Below, one piece after another: positions 24,679 through 39,091 of a stretch of DNA of 64,000 nt. This DNA is from Lichenibacterium ramalinae (GTDB lineage Bacteria; Pseudomonadota; Alphaproteobacteria; Rhizobiales; Beijerinckiaceae), in the NCBI RefSeq assembly GCF_004137085.1, contig NZ_QYBC01000016.1:1-64000 (forward strand), written 5' to 3'. Below the pieces are notes generated by a model. That model did no database searches. It was not told the origin of the DNA and saw only the letters and a program-made list of their open reading frames with translations. Position 1 is the first letter of the stretch. Each line of letters starts with the position of its first letter. Both the position numbers and the translations under genes were made by a program.

Positions 24679-25596
24679 TCACACCGTCGGGATGGGCTTC
24701 GTCGGCCCGGAGCCGACGTAGCGCCGCACCATCTCGCCGCAGAACTCCGCGAATTTCGCCGGGTCCTTCGGCGCCGAGGTGTGGTGGGGCTCGATGCCCT
24801 CCTCCTCGGGGGTGAAGCAGAACGTGACGGTGGTGTCGAAGGGCTCCAGCGCCCGCACCATCCGGTCGAACCAGCGCTCGGCGTCGGGCCGCAGCCAGTC
24901 GGCCCAGGACAGGCCCGTGCGCAGGTAGGTGACGCCGAGCCGCTTCATCCATTCCACGGCGTCGTCGAGCCGGTGGTCCTCGAAGTGGAACCACTGGCAC
25001 AGGCCCATGGCGGGCGCCACGGCGGCGAAATGCTCGGCCGCCAGCTTGGGCGTGCCGTCCTGGCGCAGCAGCCCCATGGCGAAGTGCCGGTAGTAGGAGG
25101 AGCCCTCCGCCTCCTTGTGGCGCGTCGTGGCCTCCCATTCCTTCGGCAGGTCGTAGAGCGAGTACCAATGGATGCGGGGCGCCTGCCCGACGAGGAGTTC
25201 GGCGGTGCGCTTCAGGCCCCAGTCCTGCACCTCCTCGGCCCCGAAGGTCGAGACGCCGACCTCCGACACCCAAACGGGCAGGTCCGTCACGGCGCGGATC
25301 TCGGCGATCTTCGCCGGCCAGTCGTTCAGGGCCCACAGGTTCCAGTCGAGCGGGAAGCCGTGCACGGCGACGGCGTCGAGGTGGTCGAGCACGCCGCGCG
25401 ACGCCAGCATCTGCACCCAGGTCGCGTCGATCGGCGACATGCCGCCGAGCACGCGCGGCAGGTGGGCGTTCTCGGCCCGGATGGCCTTCGCCGCCAGGAC
25501 CACCATCTCGGAGAACTTCACCCAGCCGGGGTCGACCACCGGGTCCCAGTGGGACTTGTTGTTGGGCTCGTTCCAGATCATCGCGGCTTCGATCAT
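24679..25596 (-). CDS. Glycoside hydrolase, clan GH-A (GH39-like)
   Basis: A 305-residue TIM-barrel glycosidase-like protein. WNEPNN near residues 8-13 carries the probable acid/base Glu, and WVSEVGVSTFG carries the probable nucleophile. There is no signal peptide, so it acts in the cytoplasm. It is the last gene of the six-gene inositol cassette and its ATG overlaps the methyltransferase stop (ATGA). The barrel's first strands seem shortened compared with full GH39 enzymes, so it could be a regulatory or processing homologue. The substrate is unknown. Confidence 0.65.
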   Translation of the reverse strand: MIEAAMIWNEPNNKSHWDPVVDPGWVKFSEMVVLAAKAIRAENAHLPRVLGGMSPIDATWVQMLASRGVLDHLDAVAVHGFPLDWNLWALNDWPAKIAEIRAVTDLPVWVSEVGVSTFGAEEVQDWGLKRTAELLVGQAPRIHWYSLYDLPKEWEATTRHKEAEGSSYYRHFAMGLLRQDGTPKLAAEHFAAVAPAMGLCQWFHFEDHRLDDAVEWMKRLGVTYLRTGLSWADWLRPDAERWFDRMVRALEPFDTTVTFCFTPEEEGIEPHHTSAPKDPAKFAEFCGEMVRRYVGSGPTKPIPTV

Positions 25597-26354
25597 CGGG
25601 CGGGTCCTTTCGCGGGATAGGCGGCCTCGACGAAGGGCCCGCGCGTCGTCCGGCGGCACAGGAACACTTCGGGGTCGGGGTTCGCCAGGATGTCAAAGCC
25701 CGACGAGCGCAGCATGGCGGCCGAGCAGGCGCGGTTGGGCGCCCACCAGTTCGTCGGGTCGGCCGAATAGTCCCGCTCGATGAAATGCATTTTCGGGTAT
25801 CCGGGCGCGTCGAAGTGGGACTGCTCGGTGAAGGGATAGTCGGGCGCGACCTCGGCGACCGCGTCCGAGCCGCGCTGCATCGACTGGAACAGCATGAGGT
25901 CGGAGGCGACGTTCTCCCAGATGAGGTCGAGCGCCAGCAGCGGGTGGCGCAGATGGTAGAGCACCCCCATGAAGACCACGAGGTCGAAGCGCTCGCCGAG
26001 CGCCCCGACGTCGTAGACCGACATCTGCCGGAACTCGATGCCGTCGACGCCCAGCGTTTCGGCCGCGAAGCGCGCCTGGGCGAGGTAGTCGGCGTCGAAG
26101 TCGATGCCGAGCACGCGGGACGCGCCGCGGCGCCGCATCTCGATGGCGTAGAAGCCGCCGTTGCAGCCGATGTCGAGCACGCTCTTGCCGGTGAGGTCCT
26201 CGGGCAGCACGTGGGCGAAGCCGCGGAACTTCACGCCCGGGTAGTCGCCGAGGAAATGCCCGGGCGCCGTCCAGACACCGTGGCCGAGATCCATGTTGTG
26301 GAACCAGGGGCCGAGCGCATCGGCGCGGGCGCGCAGCGCGGAAACATCCGTCAT
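25593..26354 (-). CDS. SAM-dependent methyltransferase (TIGR04290-like)
   Basis: A 253-residue class I methyltransferase. The SAM-binding motif LDIGCNGGFYAIEM is near residue 60, and IDFDADYLAQAR and FMGVLYHLRHPLLALD follow. It resembles the TIGR04290 family, which I recall as part of a conserved gene cassette with glycosyltransferase and nucleotidyltransferase genes. It is coupled by ATGA overlaps to both neighbours. The acceptor is probably the sugar or inositol product of the cassette. Confidence 0.75.
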   Translation of the reverse strand: MTDVSALRARADALGPWFHNMDLGHGVWTAPGHFLGDYPGVKFRGFAHVLPEDLTGKSVLDIGCNGGFYAIEMRRRGASRVLGIDFDADYLAQARFAAETLGVDGIEFRQMSVYDVGALGERFDLVVFMGVLYHLRHPLLALDLIWENVASDLMLFQSMQRGSDAVAEVAPDYPFTEQSHFDAPGYPKMHFIERDYSADPTNWWAPNRACSAAMLRSSGFDILANPDPEVFLCRRTTRGPFVEAAYPAKGPAR

Positions 26355-27103
26355 CGTGTGGTGTCGTCCTCTGTCGCGGCCGTTCCCTGTCCCAGCAGCC
26401 GCATGGCGGCGCGGTAGCCGTTGAACGTGCCGGTGTCGACGTAGCTTTCGCCGGTCCTGACGCCGAGCGCCCGGCCGCCGGCCGCGAGGTAGCTGTTGAC
26501 CAGCGTGCCGAAATACTCGTCCTGCCGCTCGCGCTCGAGCCACAGCGCGTGCAGGGCGTGGAACACCGCGCCCGGCATCTTGAAGGCGCCCCAGATCCAG
26601 CGGGACGCGGCGTCGGCGCGCTTCACCTGGATCTCGCGCACGCGCCCGTCCTCCTCCAGCACCACGGCGTCGAAGAGCTCGGGCCTGTCGACCGGGAACA
26701 GCAGGAAGGAGAGCACGTCGTCCGGCAGGGCCGAGAAGCCGGCCTTGGGGAACCACACCGTATCGGGCAGGCCGACGATCACGGGCTCGTGGGGCCCGAC
26801 GAGGGGGGCGGCGCGGAACACCGCGTCGCAGAGGCCGCTCGGCCGCGGCTGCACCACGTAGGCGAGGTGCGCGCCCGCGTAATCGGCGCCGTAATAGGCC
26901 AGGATGTCGTGCTTGCCGGGCGAGATCACCATGCAGATCCGGTCGGCGCCGCCCAGCACCATGCGGTCGAGCAGGTATTCGCTCACCGCGCAGGGCCGCT
27001 CGACGCCGCCGTCGTGCCGGCTGCCCACGGGCAGCAGCTCCTTCGAGAAGGCCAGCGGCTGGATGCGGCTGCCCCGGCCCGCGGCCGGCACGATGCCCCA
27101 CAT
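26351..27103 (-). CDS. Sugar-phosphate nucleotidyltransferase-like protein
   Basis: A 250-residue protein of the NTP_transferase (RmlA/GalU-like) fold. The N-terminal VPAAGRGSRIQPLAFSKELL supplies the nucleotide loop and catalytic Lys. GLPDTVWFP and VDTGTFNGY correspond to conserved metal and sugar-binding strands. It would activate a sugar or inositol phosphate as an NDP derivative. A GGGGAGG site lies before the ATG, and the glycosyltransferase stop is two bases upstream. The lack of a C-terminal helix bundle suggests a monomeric short form. Confidence 0.72.
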   Translation of the reverse strand: MWGIVPAAGRGSRIQPLAFSKELLPVGSRHDGGVERPCAVSEYLLDRMVLGGADRICMVISPGKHDILAYYGADYAGAHLAYVVQPRPSGLCDAVFRAAPLVGPHEPVIVGLPDTVWFPKAGFSALPDDVLSFLLFPVDRPELFDAVVLEEDGRVREIQVKRADAASRWIWGAFKMPGAVFHALHALWLERERQDEYFGTLVNSYLAAGGRALGVRTGESYVDTGTFNGYRAAMRLLGQGTAATEDDTTR

Positions 27104-27105
27104 GG

Positions 27106-28182
27106 TTAGCCTCCCCGCGCCGCCGCCACGGCGGCCTCGAAATCATGCGCGCGGTGGTCCGACGTGTGTTCGCCGAGCACCCGCGCCCGGCCCGCCGCCC
27201 CGATGCGGGCGAGTTCCGCGTCGGTGAGGTCGACAGCCGCCAGGGCGTCCCCGGTGCCGCGGGCCACGATCAGTTCGGAGCCCGGCGCGAAGAACGTGTC
27301 GAGCCCCGCCCAGGCGTCGGTGAGGATGGGGGCGCCGCAGGCCGCCGCCTCGAAGAGCCGCCCCGAGGGGCACCAGCCCATCGCCGCCATGGCCTGCCGG
27401 GTGACGTTGAGGGTGAGGCGCCCGGACGAGAAGAAGGCCGGATGGTCCGGCGGGGGCAGGTGGCGGACGAAGAAGATGTTGTCGGTCCAGGGGAAGTCGG
27501 CCGGATATTGCGCGCCGCCGATGAGGAACTTCGCGCCCGGCCGCATCCGGGCCGGCTGGATGAAGAGCGCGTCCAGCGCCGCCTGCCGGTCCGCCGCATA
27601 GGTGCCGAGGTAGGACAGGTCGGTGGCGAACCGCGGTTCGCGCGGCACCGGGCGGTGCAGTTCGGGGTCGACGTGGCCGTAGAGCGGCGCCACGCGGCGG
27701 GCGCCGAGCCGCGTCCTCAGCGCGTCGAGCGCCGGGCCGCCCGTGTAGCTCAGCACGAGGTCGTAGCCGGCGAAGCCGTCCGGCCCCACATAGGCGGGGC
27801 GCCGGTCCTCGGCCCCGTCGAGCGCCGCCAGCGTCACGGGCGTGTCGAGGTCGTAGAAGACGCGCAGCGCGCGGGGAGCGTCGAGCACGGCGCGCTCGGC
27901 GTCGGGCGCGTCCGGGCAATAGGAGGTGACCAGGGCGACATCGGCCTCGGCCACCTCGCGGGCGGCCCGCGCCGCGACGGCGCCCCAGTCCGGGTAGAGC
28001 ACGAGGTCGCCGCCCGGGATGGCGTGGAGGTCGCGGTTGTCGCGGTAGTAATCGGTGTCGCGCTCGAAGAAGACGACGGCGTGGCCGCGCCGGATCAGCG
28101 CCTTGAGCAGGCCCCGCCACAGCGTCGCGTGGCCGTTGCCCCAGGACGACGAGATCGTGAGGCCGAAGACCACGATCTTCAC
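27106..28182 (-). CDS. Glycosyltransferase, CgeB-like (GT-B fold)
   Basis: A 358-residue retaining glycosyltransferase. It begins IVVFGLTISSSWGNGHATLW and has the C-terminal donor region GRLFEAAACGAPILTDAWAG near residue 285, typical of CgeB-type enzymes. The GTG at 28182 overlaps the phosphatase stop (GTGA). Donor and acceptor are unknown; the neighbouring nucleotidyltransferase may make its donor. Confidence 0.75.
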   Translation of the reverse strand: MKIVVFGLTISSSWGNGHATLWRGLLKALIRRGHAVVFFERDTDYYRDNRDLHAIPGGDLVLYPDWGAVAARAAREVAEADVALVTSYCPDAPDAERAVLDAPRALRVFYDLDTPVTLAALDGAEDRRPAYVGPDGFAGYDLVLSYTGGPALDALRTRLGARRVAPLYGHVDPELHRPVPREPRFATDLSYLGTYAADRQAALDALFIQPARMRPGAKFLIGGAQYPADFPWTDNIFFVRHLPPPDHPAFFSSGRLTLNVTRQAMAAMGWCPSGRLFEAAACGAPILTDAWAGLDTFFAPGSELIVARGTGDALAAVDLTDAELARIGAAGRARVLGEHTSDHRAHDFEAAVAAARGG

Positions 28183-28772
28183 GCCGCGACCTCGTTGAGC
28201 CGGACGACGCGCATGTAGTCGCCGTAGACGTGCAGCGTCGTCACCGAGGCGGGGTCGACGACGAGGTGGTCGTGGCGGTCGAGCGACAGGCCCAGCGCCG
28301 CCATGACGACGGCCTTGACGACGTCGGAATGGGTGACGAGCGCCACGGTCTCGTCGCGATCCGTCGCGGCGAGGCGGCCGACGAGGCCGAGGGCCCGGGC
28401 CTGCACGGCCGCCATGCCCTCGCCGTCCGGCATGGCGCAGGTGGCGCGCTCGCTGTTCCAGCGCTGCCACAGCGGGTCGTCGGGAAGCTTGGCGAAATCG
28501 GCGCCCGTCCAGGCGCCGCAGTCGATCTCGTTGATCTCCTCGGCCGTCTCGACCGCGACGCCGGCCCGCGCCGCCACGATGGCGGCGGTTTCCCGCGTGC
28601 GCTCCAGCGGGCTCGACAGGATGCGGGCGATGCCGCGGCCCGCCAGCGCTTCGGCCAGGCGCTCCGCCTCGGCCCGGCCTTCTGCGCTCAGCACCACGCC
28701 CGCCATGCGGCCGGCGAGCACGCGGCCCAGCAGGCCGTGGCTGGCGTGGCGGACGAGGAGCAGCGTCAGCAC
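28179..28772 (-). CDS. Histidine phosphatase family protein
   Basis: A 197-residue member of the phosphoglycerate mutase-like phosphatases. The phosphohistidine motif LLVRHASHG lies near residues 6-14. SPLERTRETA and VTHSDVVKAVV supply the other phosphate-binding residues. It starts with GTG ten bases after the inositol-phosphate synthase stop and overlaps the glycosyltransferase start. In this setting it could dephosphorylate inositol phosphate or a sugar phosphate. Confidence 0.8.
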   Translation of the reverse strand: MLTLLLVRHASHGLLGRVLAGRMAGVVLSAEGRAEAERLAEALAGRGIARILSSPLERTRETAAIVAARAGVAVETAEEINEIDCGAWTGADFAKLPDDPLWQRWNSERATCAMPDGEGMAAVQARALGLVGRLAATDRDETVALVTHSDVVKAVVMAALGLSLDRHDHLVVDPASVTTLHVYGDYMRVVRLNEVAA

Positions 28773-28782
28773 GGCGGCAGGG

Positions 28783-29862
28783 TCACGCGGTGCCCGCCAT
28801 GAAGCGCTCGGTGCGGTCCCGCGCTTCCTCGTCGGTGAACTGGCGCGGCGGCGACTTCATGAAGTAGCTCGACGGGCCGATCAGCGCGCCGCCGATGCCG
28901 CGGTCGAGCCCGAGCTTGGCGCAGCGGACCGCGTCGATGACGACGCCGGCGGAATTGGGCGAGTCCCACACTTCGAGCTTGAGCTCGATGTTCAGCGGCA
29001 CGTTGCCGAAGCCCGTGCCTTCCAGCCGGATGTGCGCCCATTTGCGGTCCGTCAGCCAGGGCACGTAGTCGCTCGGGCCGACGTGGATGTTGTCGGGGTC
29101 GAGCGGCACGTCGAACTGGCTGGACACCGCCTGCGTCTTCGAGATCTTCTTCGATTCCAGGCGGTCGCGCTCCAGCATGTTCTGGAAGTCGGAATTGCCG
29201 CCGAAGTTCAGCTGGTAGGTCCGGTCGAGGCGGATGCCGCGGTCGCGCAGGAGGTTGACCAGCGTGCGGTGCACGATGGTGGCGCCGACCTGGCTCTTGA
29301 TGTCGTCGCCGACGATCGGCAGCCCGGCCTCGGCGAAGCGCTTCTCCCAGACGGGGTTCGACGCGATGAACACCGGCATGCAGTTCACGAAGGCGCAGCC
29401 CGCCTCGAGCGCCCGCTCGGCGTAAAATTCCGCGGCGGCCTGCGAGCCCACCGGCAGGTAGCAGACGAGGACGTCGACGCGGCTGTCCCGCAGCACGGCC
29501 GTGACGTCGGCGGGGGGCGCGTCCGACTCGGGCACGACGTCGCGCAGGTAGCGGCCGAGGCCGTCGAGCGTCGGGCCGCGCTCGACCCGCACGCCGGTCG
29601 GCTTTACGGCGGCGAAGCGCTCGGTGTTGTTGGGGGCGGCGAGCAACGCGTCGGCGAGGTCGAGCCCGACCTTGGCGGCCGACACGTCGAAGGCCGCCGC
29701 CGGCACGACGTCGCCGATGTGGTAGCCGCCGACCTCGACGTTCATGAGGCCCGGTACCGGCGCGTTGGACGAGGCGTCCTTGTAGAATTCGAGACCCTGC
29801 ACGAGGGACGAGGCGCAGTTGCCGACCCCGACGATGCCGATGCGAAGCTGCTTCTGTCCCAA
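28783..29862 (-). CDS. ino1: Inositol-3-phosphate synthase
   Basis: A 359-residue NAD-dependent synthase that isomerises glucose-6-phosphate to myo-inositol phosphate. The Rossmann motif [19 protein letters not shown] opens the protein, and the length matches the short actinobacterial/archaeal type rather than the eukaryotic one. I chose the TTG at 29862 (AGGGA site seven bases upstream). A longer frame to 29997 has no family similarity. It heads the six-gene leftward cassette. Confidence 0.85.
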
Positions 29863-29887
29863 TGTCCGATCCCTGTGATGCCAGCGC

Positions 29888-29916
29888 TGCTTAGGACGGA
29901 ACGCGGCGGTTTGCAA
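29888..29916 (-). promoter_or_regulatory. Candidate promoter of the inositol cassette
   Basis: On the minus strand TTGCAA (29911-29916) and TAAGCA (29888-29893) are 17 bases apart and lie about 25 bases before the ino1 start. The -10 match is weak. Confidence 0.35.
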
Positions 29917-30074
29917 AGCGGCCCCGTCCTCCACGGCGGTGGACGGGTGAACGGGTCGCAGGGCCTGGCCGGCCCGGCGCGCGGACCATCTTGCCATGGT
30001 TCAAGTCTTCTTAAGGCCCCTGGTGTCATTTGGCACCGTGGTCCGGCGCGTGGTGGCGGGACGGGGCGAGGCTG

Positions 30075-31238: not shown

Positions 31239-32531
31239 TCAGCGCCCGGGTCCGCCGCCCGACCCGCCACCGCCACCAGGGCCGCCCGACCCGCCACCGC
31301 CACCAGGGCCGCCCGACCCGCCACCGCCACCAGGGCCGCCCGGCCCACCAGGGCCACCAGGGCCGCCCGGCCCGCCGCCGCGCCCGGGGCCGCCCGGCGG
31401 GCCACCGCGGCCGCCGTCGACGGCCCCGCGGGGCCCCTCCGGCGCACCCGGTCGCTCCGGTCCGCCGATGCCCCCGGGTCGCCCGTCACCCTCGCGTCCG
31501 GGAGGGCCCCCCGGGCGGCCTGGACCGCCGTCGCCGCGCCCCGACCCGCGCGTGTCGCGCTCGACGCGCAGGGATTCCGCGTCGAGCCTCCCGGCCGGCC
31601 CGGGTCGCGCCACCACGACGGCCCGAACCGCGCCGTCGGGATCCAGCGCGTCCAACGCGGTCCCGGAGGCGGCGACGGCGAGCCCGGAGCCGAGTTGCAG
31701 CCCTTCGGGCGCGCGGGCCACATAGGCTTCGAGCGAGAGCCTGTCGGCCGCCGCGAAGGGCACGCGGGGCTCCACCGTCACCGAGGCGGCCCGGAAGGCG
31801 CCCCCGGCGAACCGCCCCACCAGCGTCACCTCCCGCCCGAGCAGCGCCGGCGCCACCCCCAGGATGCGGGTGCCGCCGATCGCGAGGCCGCCCGCGGGCC
31901 CGGCCGCGACGGGGCCGCGCAGCCGCGCAGCGCCGCGCGGCCGCCGCTCGACGAGGCTCGCCACGACGACGCCGTCGGGACGGCGCAACCCGCCGACGGC
32001 GAGGATGTCGCCGGGCCGGTGCGGCGGCAGGGCCACGCCCTCGCCGACCAGGATGCGCTGCCCCAGAACCGTGAGGCTTCCGGCCGCGCCGGCCTCGACG
32101 GGCCCCACCACCTCGCTGTGAACGACGATGGCGCGCGTCGCCAGCACGCCGCCGCGCTGCCGCGCCAGCACGCGGACGACGTGGCCGATCCGCAGGTCCT
32201 GCAGCGTCGCCGGCCGGCCGTCGATCGACACCCGCACCCGCGGCGGGAAGGTGACGCGCAGGTCGTTGACCACGATGCTGCCGAACCGCCGGATGGTCCC
32301 GATGACGCCGGTGCCGCCGATGCCACGGTCCTGGCCCAGCGTTTCCGATGGGTCGATCGGCACCGCGCCGGTGCCGCCGAGCCCGCGGTCGGGCGTGCCG
32401 GACCCCGGTGCCGGCGAGCCCTGTGCCGGCCGAGCCTGTGCCAGGGCGTCGCCGATCCGGAAGGCGGCGCCGTTGAGCAGCAGCGCCGCGAAGGCGCGCC
32501 GCGACGGGCCGTGGGGCCGCGACCCGGTCAA
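31239..32531 (-). CDS. DUF5666 domain protein with Gly-rich tail
   Basis: A 430-residue protein. The N-terminus has a weak signal or tether (about residues 10-30, RRAFAALLLNG). Repeated OB-like DUF5666 modules follow (for example VRVSIDGRPATLQDLRIGHVVRVL and VGPVEAGAAGSLTVLGQRIL). The last 90 residues are a disordered Gly/Pro tail with three GGPGGGGGS units. The TTG at 32531 overlaps the stop of the DUF6502 gene (TTGA), so the two are coupled. An extracytoplasmic role is likely but unproven. Confidence 0.72.
   Translation of the reverse strand: MTGSRPHGPSRRAFAALLLNGAAFRIGDALAQARPAQGSPAPGSGTPDRGLGGTGAVPIDPSETLGQDRGIGGTGVIGTIRRFGSIVVNDLRVTFPPRVRVSIDGRPATLQDLRIGHVVRVLARQRGGVLATRAIVVHSEVVGPVEAGAAGSLTVLGQRILVGEGVALPPHRPGDILAVGGLRRPDGVVVASLVERRPRGAARLRGPVAAGPAGGLAIGGTRILGVAPALLGREVTLVGRFAGGAFRAASVTVEPRVPFAAADRLSLEAYVARAPEGLQLGSGLAVAASGTALDALDPDGAVRAVVVARPGPAGRLDAESLRVERDTRGSGRGDGGPGRPGGPPGREGDGRPGGIGGPERPGAPEGPRGAVDGGRGGPPGGPGRGGGPGGPGGPGGPGGPGGGGGSGGPGGGGGSGGPGGGGGSGGGPGR
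31261..31341. repeat. Three 27-bp repeats coding GGPGGGGGS
   Basis: Exact 27-bp units begin at 31261, 31288 and 31315. On the minus strand each encodes Gly-Gly-Pro followed by a Gly5-Ser stretch. They sit in the C-terminal tail of the DUF5666 protein and resemble a flexible linker. Confidence 0.85.
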
Positions 32532-33400
32532 GCGCCGTCCTCCGGGGGGCGGGGCGCGGCGGTGCCCTCGGCCTCGCCGGGCGGCGGCAATTCCTCGGCG
32601 AAGACGTAGACGCCGAAGTTCCAGCGCCACCGGCCGCCGGCATCCGATTCGCAGGCGCGGTGGGCCTGCCGGTTGGCAGCCGTCAGCGCGTCCATGGCGA
32701 GGGCGCGCGAGCGCCGTTCGAGGTCCGCGGCGACGGCCTCCGACAGGCCGTCGTAGTGGACGGCCCGCTCGAGGAAGCGCGGCGTCTCCGCCGAGATGTT
32801 GGCCACGGCCGATGCCACGTGGTCGTGCAGGTTGCGGCCGAAATAGTAGAGCTGCTGTTCGTCGCCGCCCTGGGGCACGAAGGCACGGTCGAGCAGCGTG
32901 ACGACATCGTCGGCGTCCAGCACGGCGAGCCGCCTGTCGATCCATTCGTCGAGCACGGCGCGCGGGCGCACGTCCCGCGTGACGGAGGCGACCAGCGCCT
33001 CGAAGGAGGGCCGTCCGGCCGGTGCCACGCGGGGCAGCGGCAGCGGCAGGCCGGCCTCGTCCGTCGTGTCCCGGTCGGCGAGCCAGCGCGCCAGGATGCG
33101 GCTCGTGCGCGACAGGGCAGCCGGGACGGCGTTCACCGGGGCCCCGGCCCCGCGCAGTCGGCGGACCTCCTTGCGGTGGATGCCGGTCAGCAGGCTGACG
33201 CGGCTGTCCGTCTGTTCCTTGCCGGGCAGGGAGAAGTCGTGCTCGGCCACATTGACGTAGAGCTCCCGCAACATGTCGCACAGCGCCGGAAAGGTGATGC
33301 CGCGCCGCACGAGGAGCCGGACCAGGGGCCGCAGCACCCGCAGCAACGCCGCCTGCAGCCTGCTGGTGTCGAGGGGGACGTCTTTGGGCATCTGGGGCAC
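32528..33400 (-). CDS. DUF6502 family protein, probable regulator
   Basis: A 290-residue cytoplasmic protein. Residues about 20-85 read as a winged-helix-like DNA-binding region (GITFPALCDMLRELYVNVAE, TDSRVSLLTGIHRKEVRRLR). The remainder is an unrecognised helical domain. DUF6502 genes are commonly next to DUF5666 genes, as here. Two matching palindromes lie 50-100 bases upstream, which fits autoregulation. The ATG at 33400 is well placed. Confidence 0.7.
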   Translation of the reverse strand: MPQMPKDVPLDTSRLQAALLRVLRPLVRLLVRRGITFPALCDMLRELYVNVAEHDFSLPGKEQTDSRVSLLTGIHRKEVRRLRGAGAPVNAVPAALSRTSRILARWLADRDTTDEAGLPLPLPRVAPAGRPSFEALVASVTRDVRPRAVLDEWIDRRLAVLDADDVVTLLDRAFVPQGGDEQQLYYFGRNLHDHVASAVANISAETPRFLERAVHYDGLSEAVAADLERRSRALAMDALTAANRQAHRACESDAGGRWRWNFGVYVFAEELPPPGEAEGTAAPRPPEDGA

Positions 33401-33527: not shown

Positions 33528-33803
33528 ATGCACACCCCCGCCGCCGCATCACCGACGACCGCTGGCTTCGGCCCCGGCGATGCCCTGGCGTCGCTCGGCG
33601 CCACGCAGCGGGCCTGCCTCGGGCGCGGGCTGAGCCTTGTCCTGATCCTGGCGCTCGCCTGCGTGACGCTGGTCTATGCGCCGCTGCTCGGCCGCCCGGA
33701 CGGCACGACCGCCGGGGGTGCCGCGATCCGCGTGGCGCATGAGGCGACGACCGGCCCTCGCCCTTCCACCCGCACGGGCGCGCGCCCCCGCAAAAAAGCG
33801 TGA
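33528..33803 (+). CDS. Small membrane protein, divergent from DUF6502
   Basis: A 91-residue protein with one strong helix (about residues 36-55, GLSLVLILALACVTLVYAPLL) and a basic tail ending RPRKKA. No family is recognised. The ATG at 33528 has an AAGAGG site five bases upstream, better than the ATG at 33510. It shares the twin-operator region with the DUF6502 gene, so it may be co-regulated. Confidence 0.55.
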   Translation: MHTPAAASPTTAGFGPGDALASLGATQRACLGRGLSLVLILALACVTLVYAPLLGRPDGTTAGGAAIRVAHEATTGPRPSTRTGARPRKKA

Positions 33804-33907
33804 GCGTGACCGCAGTGGGCGCAAACCGAACCCTTCCGAGCGGCGTTGTCGCAGCGACGGCGACGGGGGCTCATGCGAGCAGGTCCGCGCCTCGCGCGGA
33901 GTGCCCC

Positions 33908-34168
33908 ATGTCCATCATCTACACGATCATCATCGGCTTCCTGGCCGGCGTCATCGCCAAGTTCCTGATGCCCGGCCCCAACGAGCCCGGCGGCTTCATC
34001 CTGACCACGATCCTCGGCATCGTCGGCGCCTTCGTGGCCACCTATCTCGGCCAGGCGATCGGCTGGTACGGCCCCAACCAAGGCGCCGGCTTCATCGGGG
34101 CGATCGTCGGCGCCATCGTCGTGCTGTTCATCTACGGCTTCTTCGCCCGGCGCTCGACGACCCTGTGA
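33908..34168 (+). CDS. GlsB/YeaQ/YmgE family membrane protein
   Basis: An 86-residue protein of three membrane helices with the family's glycine pattern: MSIIYTIIIGFLAGVIAKFL, GFILTTILGIVGAFVATYLG and GFIGAIVGAIVVLFIYGFF. These stress-associated envelope proteins have no defined activity. The ATG at 33908 starts the first helix; an upstream frame extension to 33800 is not hydrophobic and is dropped. Confidence 0.88.
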   Translation: MSIIYTIIIGFLAGVIAKFLMPGPNEPGGFILTTILGIVGAFVATYLGQAIGWYGPNQGAGFIGAIVGAIVVLFIYGFFARRSTTL

Positions 34169-34217: not shown

Positions 34218-34424
34218 TCAGTTCCGCTGGCCGGCGAGGGCCGCCTTCATCGGGCAATAGCCGGTGGCGCCGCGATAAGCCAAGGCGGCGCCGCCCGCGA
34301 GGGCGAGCAGGCTCAGCACCATGTTGGGGCGCGGCTTGGCGGCGGCGGCGGCCAGGAACACGCCGATGCCGGTGGAGATGGCGCGTTCGGTGAGGGACAG
34401 CTCGCCGGCGGGATGGTGCGTCAT
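34218..34424 (-). CDS. DUF2892-like small membrane protein
   Basis: A 68-residue protein. ERAISTGIGVFLAA (near residue 13), a second helix with GGAALAYRGATGYCPMKAAL, and the conserved TGYCP match the DUF2892 membrane domain, also found attached to rhodanese domains. The Cys is conserved in that family. It stands alone on the minus strand. Confidence 0.75.
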   Translation of the reverse strand: MTHHPAGELSLTERAISTGIGVFLAAAAAKPRPNMVLSLLALAGGAALAYRGATGYCPMKAALAGQRN

Positions 34425-34598
34425 GGTGGGGGTGCTCCGGATGCGCCCCCGGAGGCGGGCGGCGTCTCGCTCACCGTAACGGTCGGGACCCGGGCCAGTT
34501 CCCGCCACGCCCCCAGCCCCCCGGCCCCCGTGATGCCTTGCCGCGCATGGCGGCCCGCGCCACGTCCGGGGCCCTGCCCCGCTGCCCGGAAGCCCGAA

Positions 34599-35120
34599 TT
34601 GAACCTCACCTGGATCACCCCCTCCCTCGCGATCGGCGGCCGCCTGTCGGACGACGAGGCCGCCCGCCTCGCCGCCGCCGAGGGGGTCGGCGCCGTCGTC
34701 GACCTCCGCAGCGAGGCCGTCGACGAGCGCGCCATCCTGGCCGCCCAGGGCATCGCCTTCCTGCATCTGCCGACCGACGACCATGCCGCCATCACGCCCG
34801 CCATGCTGGAAGCCGGCGTGGACTTCGTGGCGGCGCAGCGGGCATCGGGGCGGCGCGTCCTGGTCCATTGCGAGCACGGCATCGGCCGCTCGGCCACGCT
34901 GGCCCTGGCGGCGCTGGTCGACGGCGGGCTCGCCCCCCTGGAGGCCTTGGAACTCGCCAAGGACCGGCGCGACCGCGTGTCGCCCAGCCCCGCCCAGTAC
35001 GGCTGCTGGCGGGACTGGCTCGACGCACGGCGCCGGCGCGGCGGCGTCGCCTGGGACGTGCCGGACTTCGACAGCTTCGCCGCCATCGCCTACCGCCACC
35101 TCGGGGCCGCGGCGCCGTGA
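34599..35120 (+). CDS. Dual-specificity phosphatase-like protein
   Basis: A 173-residue member of the cysteine phosphatase superfamily. The P-loop VHCEHGIGRSAT places the nucleophile Cys91 and the phosphate-binding Arg97, with a possible general-acid Asp at 60 or 61 (PTDDHA). A TTG start with a GGAAG site is used, since the upstream frame has no similarity. Its stop overlaps the start of the PRTase-kinase gene (GTGA), a tight functional link. Confidence 0.78.
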   Translation: MNLTWITPSLAIGGRLSDDEAARLAAAEGVGAVVDLRSEAVDERAILAAQGIAFLHLPTDDHAAITPAMLEAGVDFVAAQRASGRRVLVHCEHGIGRSATLALAALVDGGLAPLEALELAKDRRDRVSPSPAQYGCWRDWLDARRRRGGVAWDVPDFDSFAAIAYRHLGAAAP

Positions 35121-36862
35121 TCGTCTACGGCAAGGCGGGCGCACCCGTCGCGGTGGCGGCGGCGCTGGCGGAGGTCGGCGCCTGGATCGCCGAAGCCCTC
35201 GCGCCGGCGCCGGCCATCGCCCGCCATGGCGCCTGGGTGTCGGCCCTGGTGGCGGCCGGCGGGTTGGCCCAGGGCCTCGCCGATGCCGGGGCCGAGGCGG
35301 GCGAGGCCGCCGCCCTGGCCCTCGCCGAAGCGCTCGCGGCCGTCATGGGCCGGTCGTGGGAGTCCGGCCTGGCCCGCCTGCCGGCCGAAACCCCTGCCCC
35401 GGTGGCCGCGGCCCTGTCCGCGCTGGAGCGCCTCGCCCCGGCGCTGCCGGCCACGGTCGAGATCCGGCGCACCGAGGGCTTCGCGCATTACGCCGTCTAT
35501 CCCGAGGGCTTCTGGCAGGCGGCGGCGCGGATCGAGGCGCCGGTCCCCACCCGCGTGCTCGGCATCCGCTCGATCGGCGCCACCCTGGCGGCCTGCGCGG
35601 CGGCGGCGCTCGGGGCCCCGCCGCCCGTCACGGTCCGGCCGGAAGGCCATCCGTTCGCCCGCGTCGTCGTGCCCGGGGCGGCGGCGGCCGCCGTCCTGCG
35701 GGAGGGGGCGGACGCCGTGTGGGCCGTGGTCGACGAGGGGCCGGGCCTGTCGGGCAGTTCCTTCGGGGCCGCCGCCGAAGCCCTCGGCCGCGCGGGCGTG
35801 CCCCCCGGGCGCATCGTGCTGGTGCCGAGCCACGCGGGGGAACCCGGCGCCATGGCGGGCGAGGCCCAGCGCCGGCTCTGGTCGCGGACCCGCCGGGCGG
35901 TGGCGACGGGCGAAGCGCTGTGGGGACCGGACGCCGGCCCCGGCCGGCGCCTCGCCGACTGGGTCGGCGACCTCACGGGCCCGCTGCGCGCGCCGCCCGA
36001 GGACGTGGCGGGGGGCGCGTGGCGCCGCCACCGCTACGCCGACACGGCCGAGTGGCCCGCGGCCGACCGCCAGAACGAGCGCCGCAAATACCTGCTGGAA
36101 GGCGCCGAAGCCCGCGTCCTGCTGCGGTTCACCGGGCTCGGCAGCTTCGGCCGCGCCAAGTTCGCGCGCGCCCGGGCCCTCGCGGCCGCCGGCTTCGGCC
36201 TCGCGCCGCTGGCGTGGCGGCACGGCTTCCTGGCGGAAGCCTGGCGCGGCGACCTTAGGCCGCTGGACGGGGCGGCGCTCGACCGCCCGGCCCTGCTCCG
36301 CCGCACTGCCGCCTACCTGGCCTTCCGGGCCCGCGCCTTCCCGGCCGCGCCCCACGACGGCGCCGCGCCCGACGCGCTTCTGGCCATGGCCCGGGCCAAT
36401 GCCGCCGAAGCTTTGGGCGACGCTGCCGCCGAAGGCATCGCGCGCTGGGCCGGGCGGATGCCGGCCCTCGCGGCGGCGGCCCATCCGGTGGCGGTCGACG
36501 GACGGCTCGCCCCGCACGAGTGGCTGCGGGACGATGCGGGCCGCCTCGTGAAGACGGATGCGCTCGACCATTGCTGTAGCCACGACCTCGTCGGCTGCCA
36601 GGACATCGCCTGGGACGTCGCCGGCGCCGCGGTCGAATACGGCCTGTCGCCGGAGGAGACGGAAGCGCTGCGCGACGCCGTCGCGCGCGGCGCCGGCCGG
36701 CCCTGCGACCCCGGCCTGCTCGCCTTCTTCGGCGTCGCCTATCCGGCCTTCCGCATCGGCGCGCTCACCATGGCGCTCGGGCGGGAAACGGGCGCGGAGG
36801 CGGACCGCCTCGGCACCGCCCTGTCCGTCGCGACCGCGGCGCTGCGCCGGGCCCTCGGTTGA
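35117..36862 (+). CDS. Phosphoribosyltransferase-kinase-like fusion protein
   Basis: A 581-residue protein in two parts. Residues about 120-250 carry a phosphoribosyltransferase fold with VLGIRSIGATLA (147-158) and the PRPP loop VVDEGPGLSGSS (204-215). Residues about 325-580 resemble an aminoglycoside-phosphotransferase/kinase fold: LRFTGLGSFGRAKFARARAL, DGRLAPHEW (461-469), VKTDALDH (478-485) and GCQDIAWDVAGAAVE (493-507). The DxxxxHEW and DIAWD patterns match APH catalytic and metal sites loosely. A start GTG overlaps the phosphatase stop. I know no characterised protein with this order; the function is unknown. Confidence 0.65.
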   Translation: MIVYGKAGAPVAVAAALAEVGAWIAEALAPAPAIARHGAWVSALVAAGGLAQGLADAGAEAGEAAALALAEALAAVMGRSWESGLARLPAETPAPVAAALSALERLAPALPATVEIRRTEGFAHYAVYPEGFWQAAARIEAPVPTRVLGIRSIGATLAACAAAALGAPPPVTVRPEGHPFARVVVPGAAAAAVLREGADAVWAVVDEGPGLSGSSFGAAAEALGRAGVPPGRIVLVPSHAGEPGAMAGEAQRRLWSRTRRAVATGEALWGPDAGPGRRLADWVGDLTGPLRAPPEDVAGGAWRRHRYADTAEWPAADRQNERRKYLLEGAEARVLLRFTGLGSFGRAKFARARALAAAGFGLAPLAWRHGFLAEAWRGDLRPLDGAALDRPALLRRTAAYLAFRARAFPAAPHDGAAPDALLAMARANAAEALGDAAAEGIARWAGRMPALAAAAHPVAVDGRLAPHEWLRDDAGRLVKTDALDHCCSHDLVGCQDIAWDVAGAAVEYGLSPEETEALRDAVARGAGRPCDPGLLAFFGVAYPAFRIGALTMALGRETGAEADRLGTALSVATAALRRALG

Positions 36863-37001: not shown

Positions 37002-37898
37002 ATGAAGATCCGCTGTGGATACGACCTCTCCTATTATTGCCCGCAGGCCGTGGCGATGCAGTTCCTGCTGAGCGTGCATCCGACGCGCGAACGGGACCTC
37101 GTGACCGACCAGGTCATGCGCACCGACCCCTACCTGCCGAGCCGGGTGGTGCTGGACCATTTCGGCAACCGCCTGACGCGCATCATGGTGCCGCCCGGGG
37201 AGATCAAGCTGTCGGCCGACTTCGTCATCGAGGACAGCGGCCTGCCCGACGTGGTCGACTGGGACGCCCAGGAGGTGCCGATCGACCGCCTGCCGGACGA
37301 CGTGCTCATCTACCTGATGGGCAGCCGCTACGCCGACACGGACCTGCTCGGCGACATCGCCTGGCAGCTCTTCGGCGGCACGCCGCGCGGCTGGGGCCGC
37401 GTCCAGGCCATCGTCGACTACGTGCACAACCGGCTCCGCTTCGACTACCAGCTCGCCCGCAACACCCGCACGGCCAGCGAGGGGCACCAGGAACAGGTCG
37501 GCGTCTGCCGGGACTTCGCCCACCTCGCCGTCTCGCTGTGCCGCTGCATGAACATCCCGGCGCGCTATTGCACGGGCTACCTCGGCGACATCGGCGTGCC
37601 GAAGGTGCCGGACCCGATGGACTGGAGCGCCTGGTTCGAGGTCTATCTCAGCGGCAAGTGGTACACGTTCGACGCCCGCCACAACCGTCCGCGCATCGGC
37701 CGCATCGTGATGGCGCGGGGCCGCGATGCGACCGATGTCGCCATCTCGACGGCCTTCGGGCCCGCCATCCTCGGCCGCTTCGACGTCATCACCGACGAGG
37801 TCGACGAGCAGACGGTGCACCGCCACAGCTATTCGGGGCAGTTCCCGTCGAGCCGGATGGACGGCGAGCAGCCCATGCCGGTGCTGTCGCGCGGCTGA
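37002..37898 (+). CDS. Transglutaminase-like domain protein
   Basis: A 298-residue protein. The catalytic Cys lies in QVGVCRDFAHLAVSLCR near residue 166; the His is in the WFEVYLSGKWYTFDARHN region and an Asp follows. The N-terminal beta-domain (about 1-110) is typical of the bacterial transglutaminase-like group. Such proteins are probably proteases or amide-bond enzymes of unknown substrate. It precedes a paralogue at 38111, though 212 bases separate them. The GGGGAG site before the ATG decides the start. Confidence 0.78.
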   Translation: MKIRCGYDLSYYCPQAVAMQFLLSVHPTRERDLVTDQVMRTDPYLPSRVVLDHFGNRLTRIMVPPGEIKLSADFVIEDSGLPDVVDWDAQEVPIDRLPDDVLIYLMGSRYADTDLLGDIAWQLFGGTPRGWGRVQAIVDYVHNRLRFDYQLARNTRTASEGHQEQVGVCRDFAHLAVSLCRCMNIPARYCTGYLGDIGVPKVPDPMDWSAWFEVYLSGKWYTFDARHNRPRIGRIVMARGRDATDVAISTAFGPAILGRFDVITDEVDEQTVHRHSYSGQFPSSRMDGEQPMPVLSRG

Positions 37899-38110
37899 AC
37901 GGGGCGGCCGCGGCAGGTCCCGCGGCGGCTCCCGCGGCGGGTCCCGCGCTTCCGGCATCTTCCCGGATCGCTTGATTTGCGTTAGGGGCTAAACCCTTCG
38001 GCTGCCCGCGCCCACACTGGGGCCGCGCGGCGGCCGGGGTGCCGCAGGGGCATCATGGACCGGACATCCGTCCGCGATCCGTCCCCCGCAGGCCTTTGCA
38101 CGGACATCGG

Positions 38111-39091
38111 ATGACGGTTCTCTCGGTTCGGCACATCACCAGGTACGAGTACAAGGCGCCGGTACGGTTCGGCGAGCATCGGCTGATGTTCCGTCCGCGC
38201 GACAGCTACGACCAGCGGCTGATCTCGTCCGAGATGCGGATCACGCCCGAGCCCAAGCGCGTGCGCTGGTTCCACGACGTCTTCGGCAACTGCGTGGCGG
38301 TGGCGAGTTTCGGCAGCGAGGCGCCCATCCTCACCTTCGATACCCGCATCGTGCTCGACCACACGCCGTCGAACGCCCCCGATTTCATGATCGAGGACTA
38401 CGCCAAGACCTATCCCTTCACCTACGGGGCCGAGGAGCGGCCCGACATCTCCCGGCTGATCGAGCGCCAGTACCTCGACCCCGAGCACCAGCTCGACCGA
38501 TGGGTCCGCCGCTTCGTGCGCTACGGCCAGCGCACCGACACGGGGGAACTCCTGATGACGCTCACCTATGCCATCAAGGAGAGCTTCACCTATTCGAAGC
38601 GCTTCGAGCGCGGCACGCAGGACCCGCTGCTGACGCTGAGCAGCGGCAAGGGCACCTGCCGGGACTTCGCCGTGCTGATGATGGAGGCCGTGCGGGCGCT
38701 GGGCTTCGCGGCCCGCTTCGTGTCGGGCTACCTCTACGTGCCGAGCGAGAACGGCGCCGAACATCTCGGCGGCGGCAACACCCATGCGTGGTGCCAGGTC
38801 TACCTGCCGGGTGCCGGCTGGGTGGAGTTCGACCCCACCAACGGCATCGTGGGCAACCGCGACCTCATCCGGGTCGCGGTGGCGCGCGATCCGCGGCAGG
38901 CAATCCCCCTGCAGGGCAGCTATTTCGGCAATGCCGCCGACTATGTCGGCATGACGGTCTCGGTCGACGTGCAGGAGATCGAGGCCCCGGCCGCCATCAA
39001 TGGGCCCGGCAGCCGCCCGGCGGAACGGAGCCACGGCGACGGCCTGGCCGGCGCCGACCCCAAGGCCCAGACCCAACTCCAACAGGCGTGA
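38111..39091 (+). CDS. Transglutaminase-like domain protein
   Basis: A 326-residue paralogue of the preceding gene. The N-terminal domain TVLSVRHITRYEYKAPVRFG is followed by a transglutaminase core with Cys in GKGTCRDFAVLMMEAVRALG and His in NTHAWCQVYLPGAGWVEFDP. The acidic C-terminus is unconserved. These families often accompany alpha-E and ATP-grasp proteins, but none is nearby. The cytoplasmic location is inferred from the lack of a signal peptide. Confidence 0.82.
   Translation: MTVLSVRHITRYEYKAPVRFGEHRLMFRPRDSYDQRLISSEMRITPEPKRVRWFHDVFGNCVAVASFGSEAPILTFDTRIVLDHTPSNAPDFMIEDYAKTYPFTYGAEERPDISRLIERQYLDPEHQLDRWVRRFVRYGQRTDTGELLMTLTYAIKESFTYSKRFERGTQDPLLTLSSGKGTCRDFAVLMMEAVRALGFAARFVSGYLYVPSENGAEHLGGGNTHAWCQVYLPGAGWVEFDPTNGIVGNRDLIRVAVARDPRQAIPLQGSYFGNAADYVGMTVSVDVQEIEAPAAINGPGSRPAERSHGDGLAGADPKAQTQLQQA

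Follow-up and report, generated by a model that had tools for sequence, protein, structure and literature searches.

Gene Content of the Locus

The window analysed here comprises the first 64,000 nucleotides of contig NZ_QYBC01000016.1 of Lichenibacterium ramalinae and contains two overlapping genes, here called A and B (Table 1), of which A codes for a phosphatase and B for a protein whose predicted structure joins a phosphoribosyltransferase (PRTase) fold, weakly recognized, to a kinase fold. An earlier note on this DNA, made from its letters alone, had described A as a Cys-dependent phosphatase and B as a 581-residue fusion of a PRTase with an APH-type kinase-like domain, and had read the GTGA at their junction as a sign of coupling. 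All three descriptions agree with our data, the overlap or near-abutment of the two reading frames being found in 11 loci.

Judged by its sequence, gene A is a dual-specificity phosphatase (DSP), since it exceeds the cut-off of DSPc (PF00782; E 6.8e-14, 52.2 bits against a cut-off of 33.5) and carries an HC(X5)R active site. This site reads HCEHGIGR, and HCxxGIGR is kept in all 11 aligned A orthologues. With gene A, three DSP families linked to conflict systems, PF22785 (Tc-R-P), PF22784 (PTP-SAK) and PF22741 (PTP-NADK), also exceed their cut-offs, each at a lower score than the top-scoring DSPc; the match of A to PF14566 (inositol hexakisphosphate phosphatases; E 6e-4) lies below the cut-off. 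A search of PADLOC with gene A gave no match.

The B protein of the window matched no family of NCBIfam or Pfam and nothing credible among the PDB sequences (a single match, E 0.16). When 58 B members were scanned singly against Pfam, eight families appeared with one member each (best E 0.0093), and a profile of the 58 sequences found no PDB sequence at E 10. Three identities for B were rejected: that it belongs to a phage family of the PHROGs collection (none matched at E 0.1), that it is a known anti-phage defence system (the sole PADLOC match was PDC-M40C, E 0.038, at residues 44-94) and that its sequence makes it an ordinary APH or PRTase family protein (no family match). Our literature search, for which subscription papers were mostly outside reach and S. 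meliloti tags were guessed, returned no description of the fusion or its gene cluster; in word searches within texts, the one passage found in PMC12542648 concerns another locus, and PMC8406287 and PMC6599016 held no occurrence.

Scanning 84,980 species genomes for relatives of B yielded 158 candidate stretches, of which 103 encode a B relative confirmed by tblastn, and 80 of these were retained as the loci (numbered with an L) to which the counts below refer. Neighbour-gene counts cover the DNA stretch around each B locus, some stretches ending early at contig ends. A second sample added ten more stretches from the window's GTDB family (five of them copies of contigs already in the set), and an even draw of 199 genomes represents the window's order. 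B, which has a single match in its own genome, is thus present in at least 80 loci, and occurs in 5/199 genomes of the order, 3/142 of the class and 13/60 of the family (one a partial match, E 4.9e-16). It is also carried by 90 plasmid records, 66 of them from Sinorhizobium, and the carriers include Sinorhizobium meliloti, with copies on pSymB (in strain 1021 at 253401-255086).

Table 1. Features of the window discussed in the text.
Feature	Position	Strand	Remarks
Gene A, DSP-type phosphatase	34599..35120 (including stop)	+	173 aa; TTG start; HC(X5)R = C91...R97
GTGA shared at the A/B junction (stop of A, start of B)	35117..35120	+	reading frames share four nt
Gene B, PRTase and kinase-fold fusion	35117..36862	+	581 aa; GTG start
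Predicted PRTase core of B	35474..35980	+	residues ~120-288, borders approximate; holds PRPP-loop-like VDEGPGLSGSSF
Predicted kinase-fold region of B	36014..36859	+	residues ~300-581, borders approximate
Inositol-phosphate synthase INO1	28783..29997	-	PF01658, E 1.3e-35; within 8 kb in 48/80 loci
Histidine phosphatase HPHOS	28191..28766 (tblastn borders)	-	PF00300, E 2.8e-43; 48/80 loci
Glycosyltransferase	27139..28131 (tblastn borders)	-	PF13524, E 6e-38; relative in 33/80 loci
Sugar nucleotidyltransferase-like protein	26351..27103	-	PF00483, E 2.5e-8; 10/80 loci
TIGR04290-family methyltransferase	25602..26399	-	TIGR04290, E 7e-110, over cut-off, at 25656-26336; 31/80 loci
Glycosyl-hydrolase-like protein	24679..25659	-	39/80 loci; labelled beta-xylosidase in S. 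meliloti
DUF6502 protein	32528-33400	-	PF20112, E 3.1e-31
Transglycosylase-associated protein	33800-34168	+	PF04226, E 1.8e-15
YgaP-like transmembrane protein	34221-34424	-	68 aa; PF11127, E 5.7e-8
GGAAC-N16-CGTT site	34478-34502	-
Transglutaminase-like protein	37002-37898	+	PF01841
Transglutaminase-like protein	38039-39091	+	PF01841

Predicted Folds of the Two Halves of B

AlphaFold2 gives a confident model of full-length B (pLDDT 93.3, pTM 0.93), and the invariant columns of the 58-sequence alignment, in which the window protein is included, fall in two clusters. Residues 1-300 modelled alone reach a pLDDT of 92.1, and among the best 50 of the 293 Foldseek matches to this model, 47 are PRTases or phosphoribosyl pyrophosphate (PRPP) synthetases, including 2dy0 (listed twice), 1wd5, 4rad, 7rh8 and 3qw4, which we take to be PRTases; the other three are 3ke3 and 7kma (twice). 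A PRPP-loop-like motif, VDEGPGLSGSSF, occupies residues 205-216 between a strand (201-205) and a helix (214-225) of the model. Residues D206-G210 and S212-S215 are invariant in all 58 sequences, and VDEGPGLSGSS (205-215) is preceded by an almost invariant RSIG (151-154). The loop shows the acidic pair and the small or hydroxyl residues, placed between strand and helix, that characterize a type I PRTase; the classic PRPP motif is shorter. None of the 58 members matched a curated PRTase sequence family at E 0.1. In a profile comparison with eight PRTase_2 (PF15609) proteins, B aligned its PRPP loop with theirs (E 1.2e-4, probability 55%). PRTase_2 is found in Ter-linked operons, but B differs from it in having an extra kinase-fold domain and other neighbours, and PF15609 itself was unmatched by the 58 members at E 0.1 and has no match in the window's genome. 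TerD, ATP-grasp and HAD proteins, the neighbours typical of Ter systems, were never the leading match when representative neighbours were compared with Pfam, a comparison that did not seek them systematically. Our models weakly suggest, then, that the N-terminal half of B has a PRTase fold.

The earlier note had stated that its system claim would fail if the C-terminal half aligned to a known non-kinase family; kinase folds were matched instead. Foldseek with the full model returned 26 PDB matches at E<=1e-3, led by the choline kinase LicA (4r77; E 7.4e-7, TM by target 0.57) and including a Mesorhizobium loti protein of the choline kinase/APH-like type (M. loti 3dxq), and to judge by their titles these are kinases of choline or ethanolamine, or else kinases and phosphotransferases acting on other small molecules, the title of TvaE (8jsu) alone being uninformative. 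The likeness lies in the predicted fold: the APH and choline kinase models matched none of the 58 members at E 0.1, and hhalign of B against four APH-family proteins encoded in its own genome gave a probability of <5%.

The invariant residues of this half are D461, K479, D481, D484, H485, H489, D490 and GCQDIAWD (493-500). Two strands of the model (469-471 and 477-479) place D481 at the position expected for the Asp of DFG, as in the choline kinases. Read by eye in the same register, E468 would stand at the Asn of HGDxxxxN and R463 at the catalytic Asp, with D461 two residues before it, so that HGD-LHP-xN of the kinases would read D-x-R-L-x-x-x-E in B, an alignment made on the strand pattern. 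In the 81 sequences used for the kinase-site counts, position 463 is Arg in 79 and Lys in two, and position 468 is Glu in 79 and Lys in two. The HGD Asp of B therefore appears, in this by-eye register, to be replaced by Arg or Lys; in an alternative register D461 itself may be the catalytic Asp. The apparent beta-3 Lys is Lys in 73/81 and Arg in 8/81, the window protein having Arg, which again departs from the choline kinase/APH-like proteins. The kinase half may thus not be a conventional kinase, its predicted fold being kinase-like and ordinary kinase activity uncertain.

Coupling of B to Phosphatases

Conservation of the A-B pair, which the earlier note had named as a check, is partial: the pair does recur in other genomes, but B is immediately preceded by an A orthologue in just 7/80 relatives and in 3/10 of the further family stretches. 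The seven loci belong to Myxococcota (L046, L070), to Comamonadaceae and Sphaerotilaceae (L048, L079) and to alphaproteobacterial families (L051, L053, L059), and the other three are L089, from the same genus as the window, L092 and L093. With start codons picked by script, the gap between the A stop and the B start ranges from -17 to +13 nt over the 11 paired loci (window and L089, -4; L046, L053, L059, L070 and L079, -1; L048, +2; L051, +13; L092 and L093, -17). In 42 B-bearing genomes from the 80 that were searched for A, five had it at E<=1e-15, and these are exactly the five of that set in which A adjoins B; at that threshold A occurs in 1/199 genomes of the order sample, the window's own. 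By inspection the pair occupies at least five separate places in the tree; the single DSP-label change given by the tree tool compares only DSP rows with rows having a downstream histidine phosphatase, and is uninformative on the number of gains or losses of the pair. A and B thus form a genuine pair, though not an obligatory one.

A histidine phosphatase lies directly downstream of B in seven other loci (L005, L007, L010, L011, L021, L031 and L065), identified by Pfam in L007 and by tblastn to the L007 protein in the other six. It overlaps B by 4 nt in four loci and follows it by 17-23 nt in three. HPHOS, the histidine phosphatase of the inositol module described below, is absent from the examined stretch of these seven loci, and a DSP is found in L048 and L079, the only two loci that have INO1 without HPHOS. 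Of the 80 loci, 59 contain one or more of the three phosphatases. DSP and histidine phosphatases differ in fold, and that B can be coupled to either suggests a dephosphorylation step in the reaction sequence to which B belongs.

Association of B with an Inositol and Glycoside Gene Module

In the window the module runs on the minus strand from 29997 to 24679, 4.6 kb from A, and at least one of its four core genes (INO1, HPHOS, the methyltransferase and the glycosyl-hydrolase-like gene) is present in 50/80 loci. In S. meliloti R14 the B homologue on pSymB, annotated as a hypothetical protein, adjoins the gene for inositol-3-phosphate synthase as well as those for a histidine phosphatase and the beta-xylosidase-labelled protein, and in Roseomonas mucosa it follows a run of INO1, phosphatase and glycosyltransferase. 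Neighbour families were obtained by clustering the adjacent genes, and only representatives of recurring clusters were scanned against the family libraries. For an HPHOS representative the closest model is MSMEG_4193 (177 bits, cut-off 204), and there is a further likeness to the alpha-ribazole phosphatase CobC (TIGR03162, 120.6 bits, below the cut-off of 162.9), which removes the 5-phosphate of a PRTase product. The glycosyl-hydrolase-like protein of the window matched no Pfam family at E 1e-3, and two of its relatives gave weak PF11790 matches below cut-off. Other recurring neighbours are glycosyltransferases, epimerases, and GFO/IDH/MocA and zinc-type dehydrogenases. The last two form a pair near B in L039, L042, L049, L058 and L078; a GFO/IDH/MocA relative in L080 scored 98.5 bits against inositol 2-dehydrogenase, far below the cut-off of 355.

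The module recalls the INO1/MshA route to mycothiol, as one INO1 neighbour matches TIGR03450 (E 1.7e-161, 537 bits, below the cut-off of 638) and two neighbour glycosyltransferases match MshA weakly, below cut-off. It differs in its additional methyltransferase, glycosidase-like and PRTase parts, and no MshB, MshC or MshD model, none of them specifically sought, appeared among the scanned neighbours.

The earlier note had proposed a signal or base-modification circuit, and in this form, or as a conflict system, the PRTase product would be a modified nucleotide signal switched by the kinase and the phosphatase. Such a circuit is in keeping with the set of domains and with the remote resemblance of B to PRTase_2, a family that in Ter systems has been linked to a postulated metabolite resembling a nucleoside. 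The three conflict-linked families matched by A, a glycosyltransferase neighbour in L019 that passes the cut-off of the GT4-conflict family PF20706, and the weak likeness of the TIGR04290 methyltransferase to the tRNA enzyme CmoB (E 4e-19, below cut-off) point the same way. However, DSPc scores highest for A and Glyco_transf_4 for the L019 protein, PADLOC offers nothing beyond the marginal B match already given, and the recurring neighbours identified among the scanned representatives are mostly sugar and inositol enzymes. With inositol-phosphate synthase, glycosyltransferases, epimerases, a methyltransferase and a glycosidase-like protein beside it, the context does not favour such a circuit, and we regard it as improbable; it keeps some of its plausibility through the matches of A to DSP subfamilies and the PF20706 neighbour.

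INO1 is associated with B beyond immediate adjacency. Among the 32 loci without a nearby INO1, PF01658 was found somewhere in 29 of the 31 searchable genomes (the L031 genome being excluded), which brings INO1, near B or elsewhere in the genome, to 77/79. In the order sample PF01658 is present in 42/199 genomes and TIGR04290 over cut-off in 15/199, and all five B genomes of that sample have both on the contig of B, within ~10 kb. A second inositol-phosphate synthase match lies in the window's genome beyond the window (G000 C64:246934-247251). TIGR04290 over cut-off also occurs <=4 kb from PF01658, on the same contig, in eight genomes with no B match (G145, G151, G195, G232, G251, G295, G310 and G333), and the inositol module therefore exists without B.

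These frequencies bear on another explanation, in which B serves exopolysaccharide or lipopolysaccharide loci as an accessory that decorates a surface glycan with ribofuranosyl or phosphoribosyl groups, inositol being incidental. Relatives of the epimerases (43/80 loci) and of the glycosyltransferases (33/80, 37/80 and 38/80 loci with three different queries), a pyruvyl transferase (cluster C13) in 12 loci, a PMT_2 protein after B in L034 and the location of the S. meliloti copies on pSymB, a replicon rich in polysaccharide genes, would all suit it. Against it stand the 77/79 for INO1 compared with 42/199 in the order, and the scanned neighbours, among which no flippase or polymerase family turned up, although no search was aimed at them. 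We consider this explanation unlikely.

Proposed Function of the A/B Unit

Our tentative preference, which we hold at somewhat less than even confidence, is that A and B form a biosynthetic unit tied to the inositol and glycoside pathway, in which B phosphoribosylates and the phosphatase trims. It draws on computed observations: the folds predicted for both halves, the PRPP-loop-like motif that does not vary, the coupling of B to DSP or histidine phosphatases and the association with INO1. The weak alignment with the PRTase_2 loops and the sub-cut-off likenesses of HPHOS to CobC and of A to inositol hexakisphosphate phosphatases also speak for it. The PRTase half of B would transfer 5-phosphoribose from PRPP, the presumed donor, to an acceptor, possibly inositol, an inositol phosphate or an inositol glycoside made by the INO1/glycosyltransferase module. 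The kinase-fold half would bind this acceptor and might phosphorylate or otherwise activate it, after which the coupled phosphatase would strip a phosphate to leave the ribosylated product. The proposed logic is like that of the ribosylation step in butirosin and ribostamycin biosynthesis, which pairs the PRTase BtrL with the phosphatase BtrP in PRPP-dependent phosphoribosyl transfer to a cyclitol-derived acceptor followed by removal of the 5-phosphate; the present unit differs in the kinase-fold domain fused into B and in its phosphatase, which is of the DSP or histidine type.

The roles of the two halves could also be reversed, with the kinase-fold half as the main catalyst, phosphorylating inositol or a sugar, the PRTase-like half as a regulatory nucleotide or PRPP sensor, and the phosphatase opposing or trimming the phosphorylation and so controlling inositol phosphate levels. 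The kinase fold is the stronger of the two fold matches and its closest folds are small-molecule kinases, which together with the INO1 association and the presence of a DSP in both INO1-bearing loci without HPHOS would agree with this arrangement. An Asp of the HGD type that is apparently Arg or Lys in 81/81 sequences (in the by-eye register), the absence of any APH-family sequence match and an invariant PRPP-loop motif, unexpected in a mere sensor, argue otherwise, and a catalytic kinase half of this sort seems to us as unlikely as the surface-glycan role.

Several observations weigh against phosphoribosylation in an inositol pathway. The Foldseek match of the N-terminal half is weak (best E 8.4e-3, none at E<=1e-3), and the three DSP families of A and the PF20706 neighbour hint at conflict systems. 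None of the four core module genes lies in the examined stretch of 30/80 loci, and none of the three phosphatases in that of 21/80. In L090, from the same genus as the window, B stands beside the whole module with no DSP in the 19 kb examined. The DSP as a simple replacement of HPHOS was rejected, both being present in the window, L051, L053 and L059. The Fisher test that compares 29/31 with 37/194 for PF01658 (p 5e-16) ignores phylogeny and sets different draws against each other. Finally, 10 of the 15 genomes of the order sample with TIGR04290 over cut-off lack B, and B is therefore at most an accessory of the TIGR04290 module.

A bolder form of the preferred phosphoribosylation reading sees in B a new family of enzymes, spread over Proteobacteria (S. 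meliloti pSymB among them) and Myxococcota, which would use PRPP to ribosylate a glycoside built on inositol; a conserved D-x-R arrangement in place of the HGD Asp would serve a transfer other than ordinary phosphorylation in the kinase-fold domain, and interchangeable phosphatases of different folds would finish the product. This form is on the unlikely side, a little less so than the reversed roles above.

Promoter-Like Sites and Flanking Genes

Control of B by a promoter like that of the general-stress sigma factor EcfG was considered and rejected. GGAAC-N15-18-CGTT occurs <=300 bp upstream of B in 9/79 loci. All nine are Rhizobiaceae with similar sites 232-256 bp upstream of B, where INO1 begins 0.1-0.2 kb upstream of B, so the site is probably conserved INO1 coding sequence. 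The motif lies upstream of INO1 in 3/48, and the site in the window, which resembles the EcfG promoter, faces away from A; the YgaP-like protein starts ~53 bp after it. The transglycosylase-associated protein is encoded upstream of A and the DUF6502 protein between the inositol module and A/B. Downstream of B are two consecutive transglutaminase-like proteins, which share no gene cluster with the loci of the 80 relatives.

Significance of the B Family

Neither Pfam nor (for the window protein) NCBIfam has a family for B, a conserved protein that also has no sequence relative in the PDB and is carried by the model legume symbiont S. meliloti. Should the proposed function be correct, B would link PRPP chemistry to a pathway for an inositol-linked glycoside, and its apparently altered kinase site may represent a new chemistry for the kinase fold.

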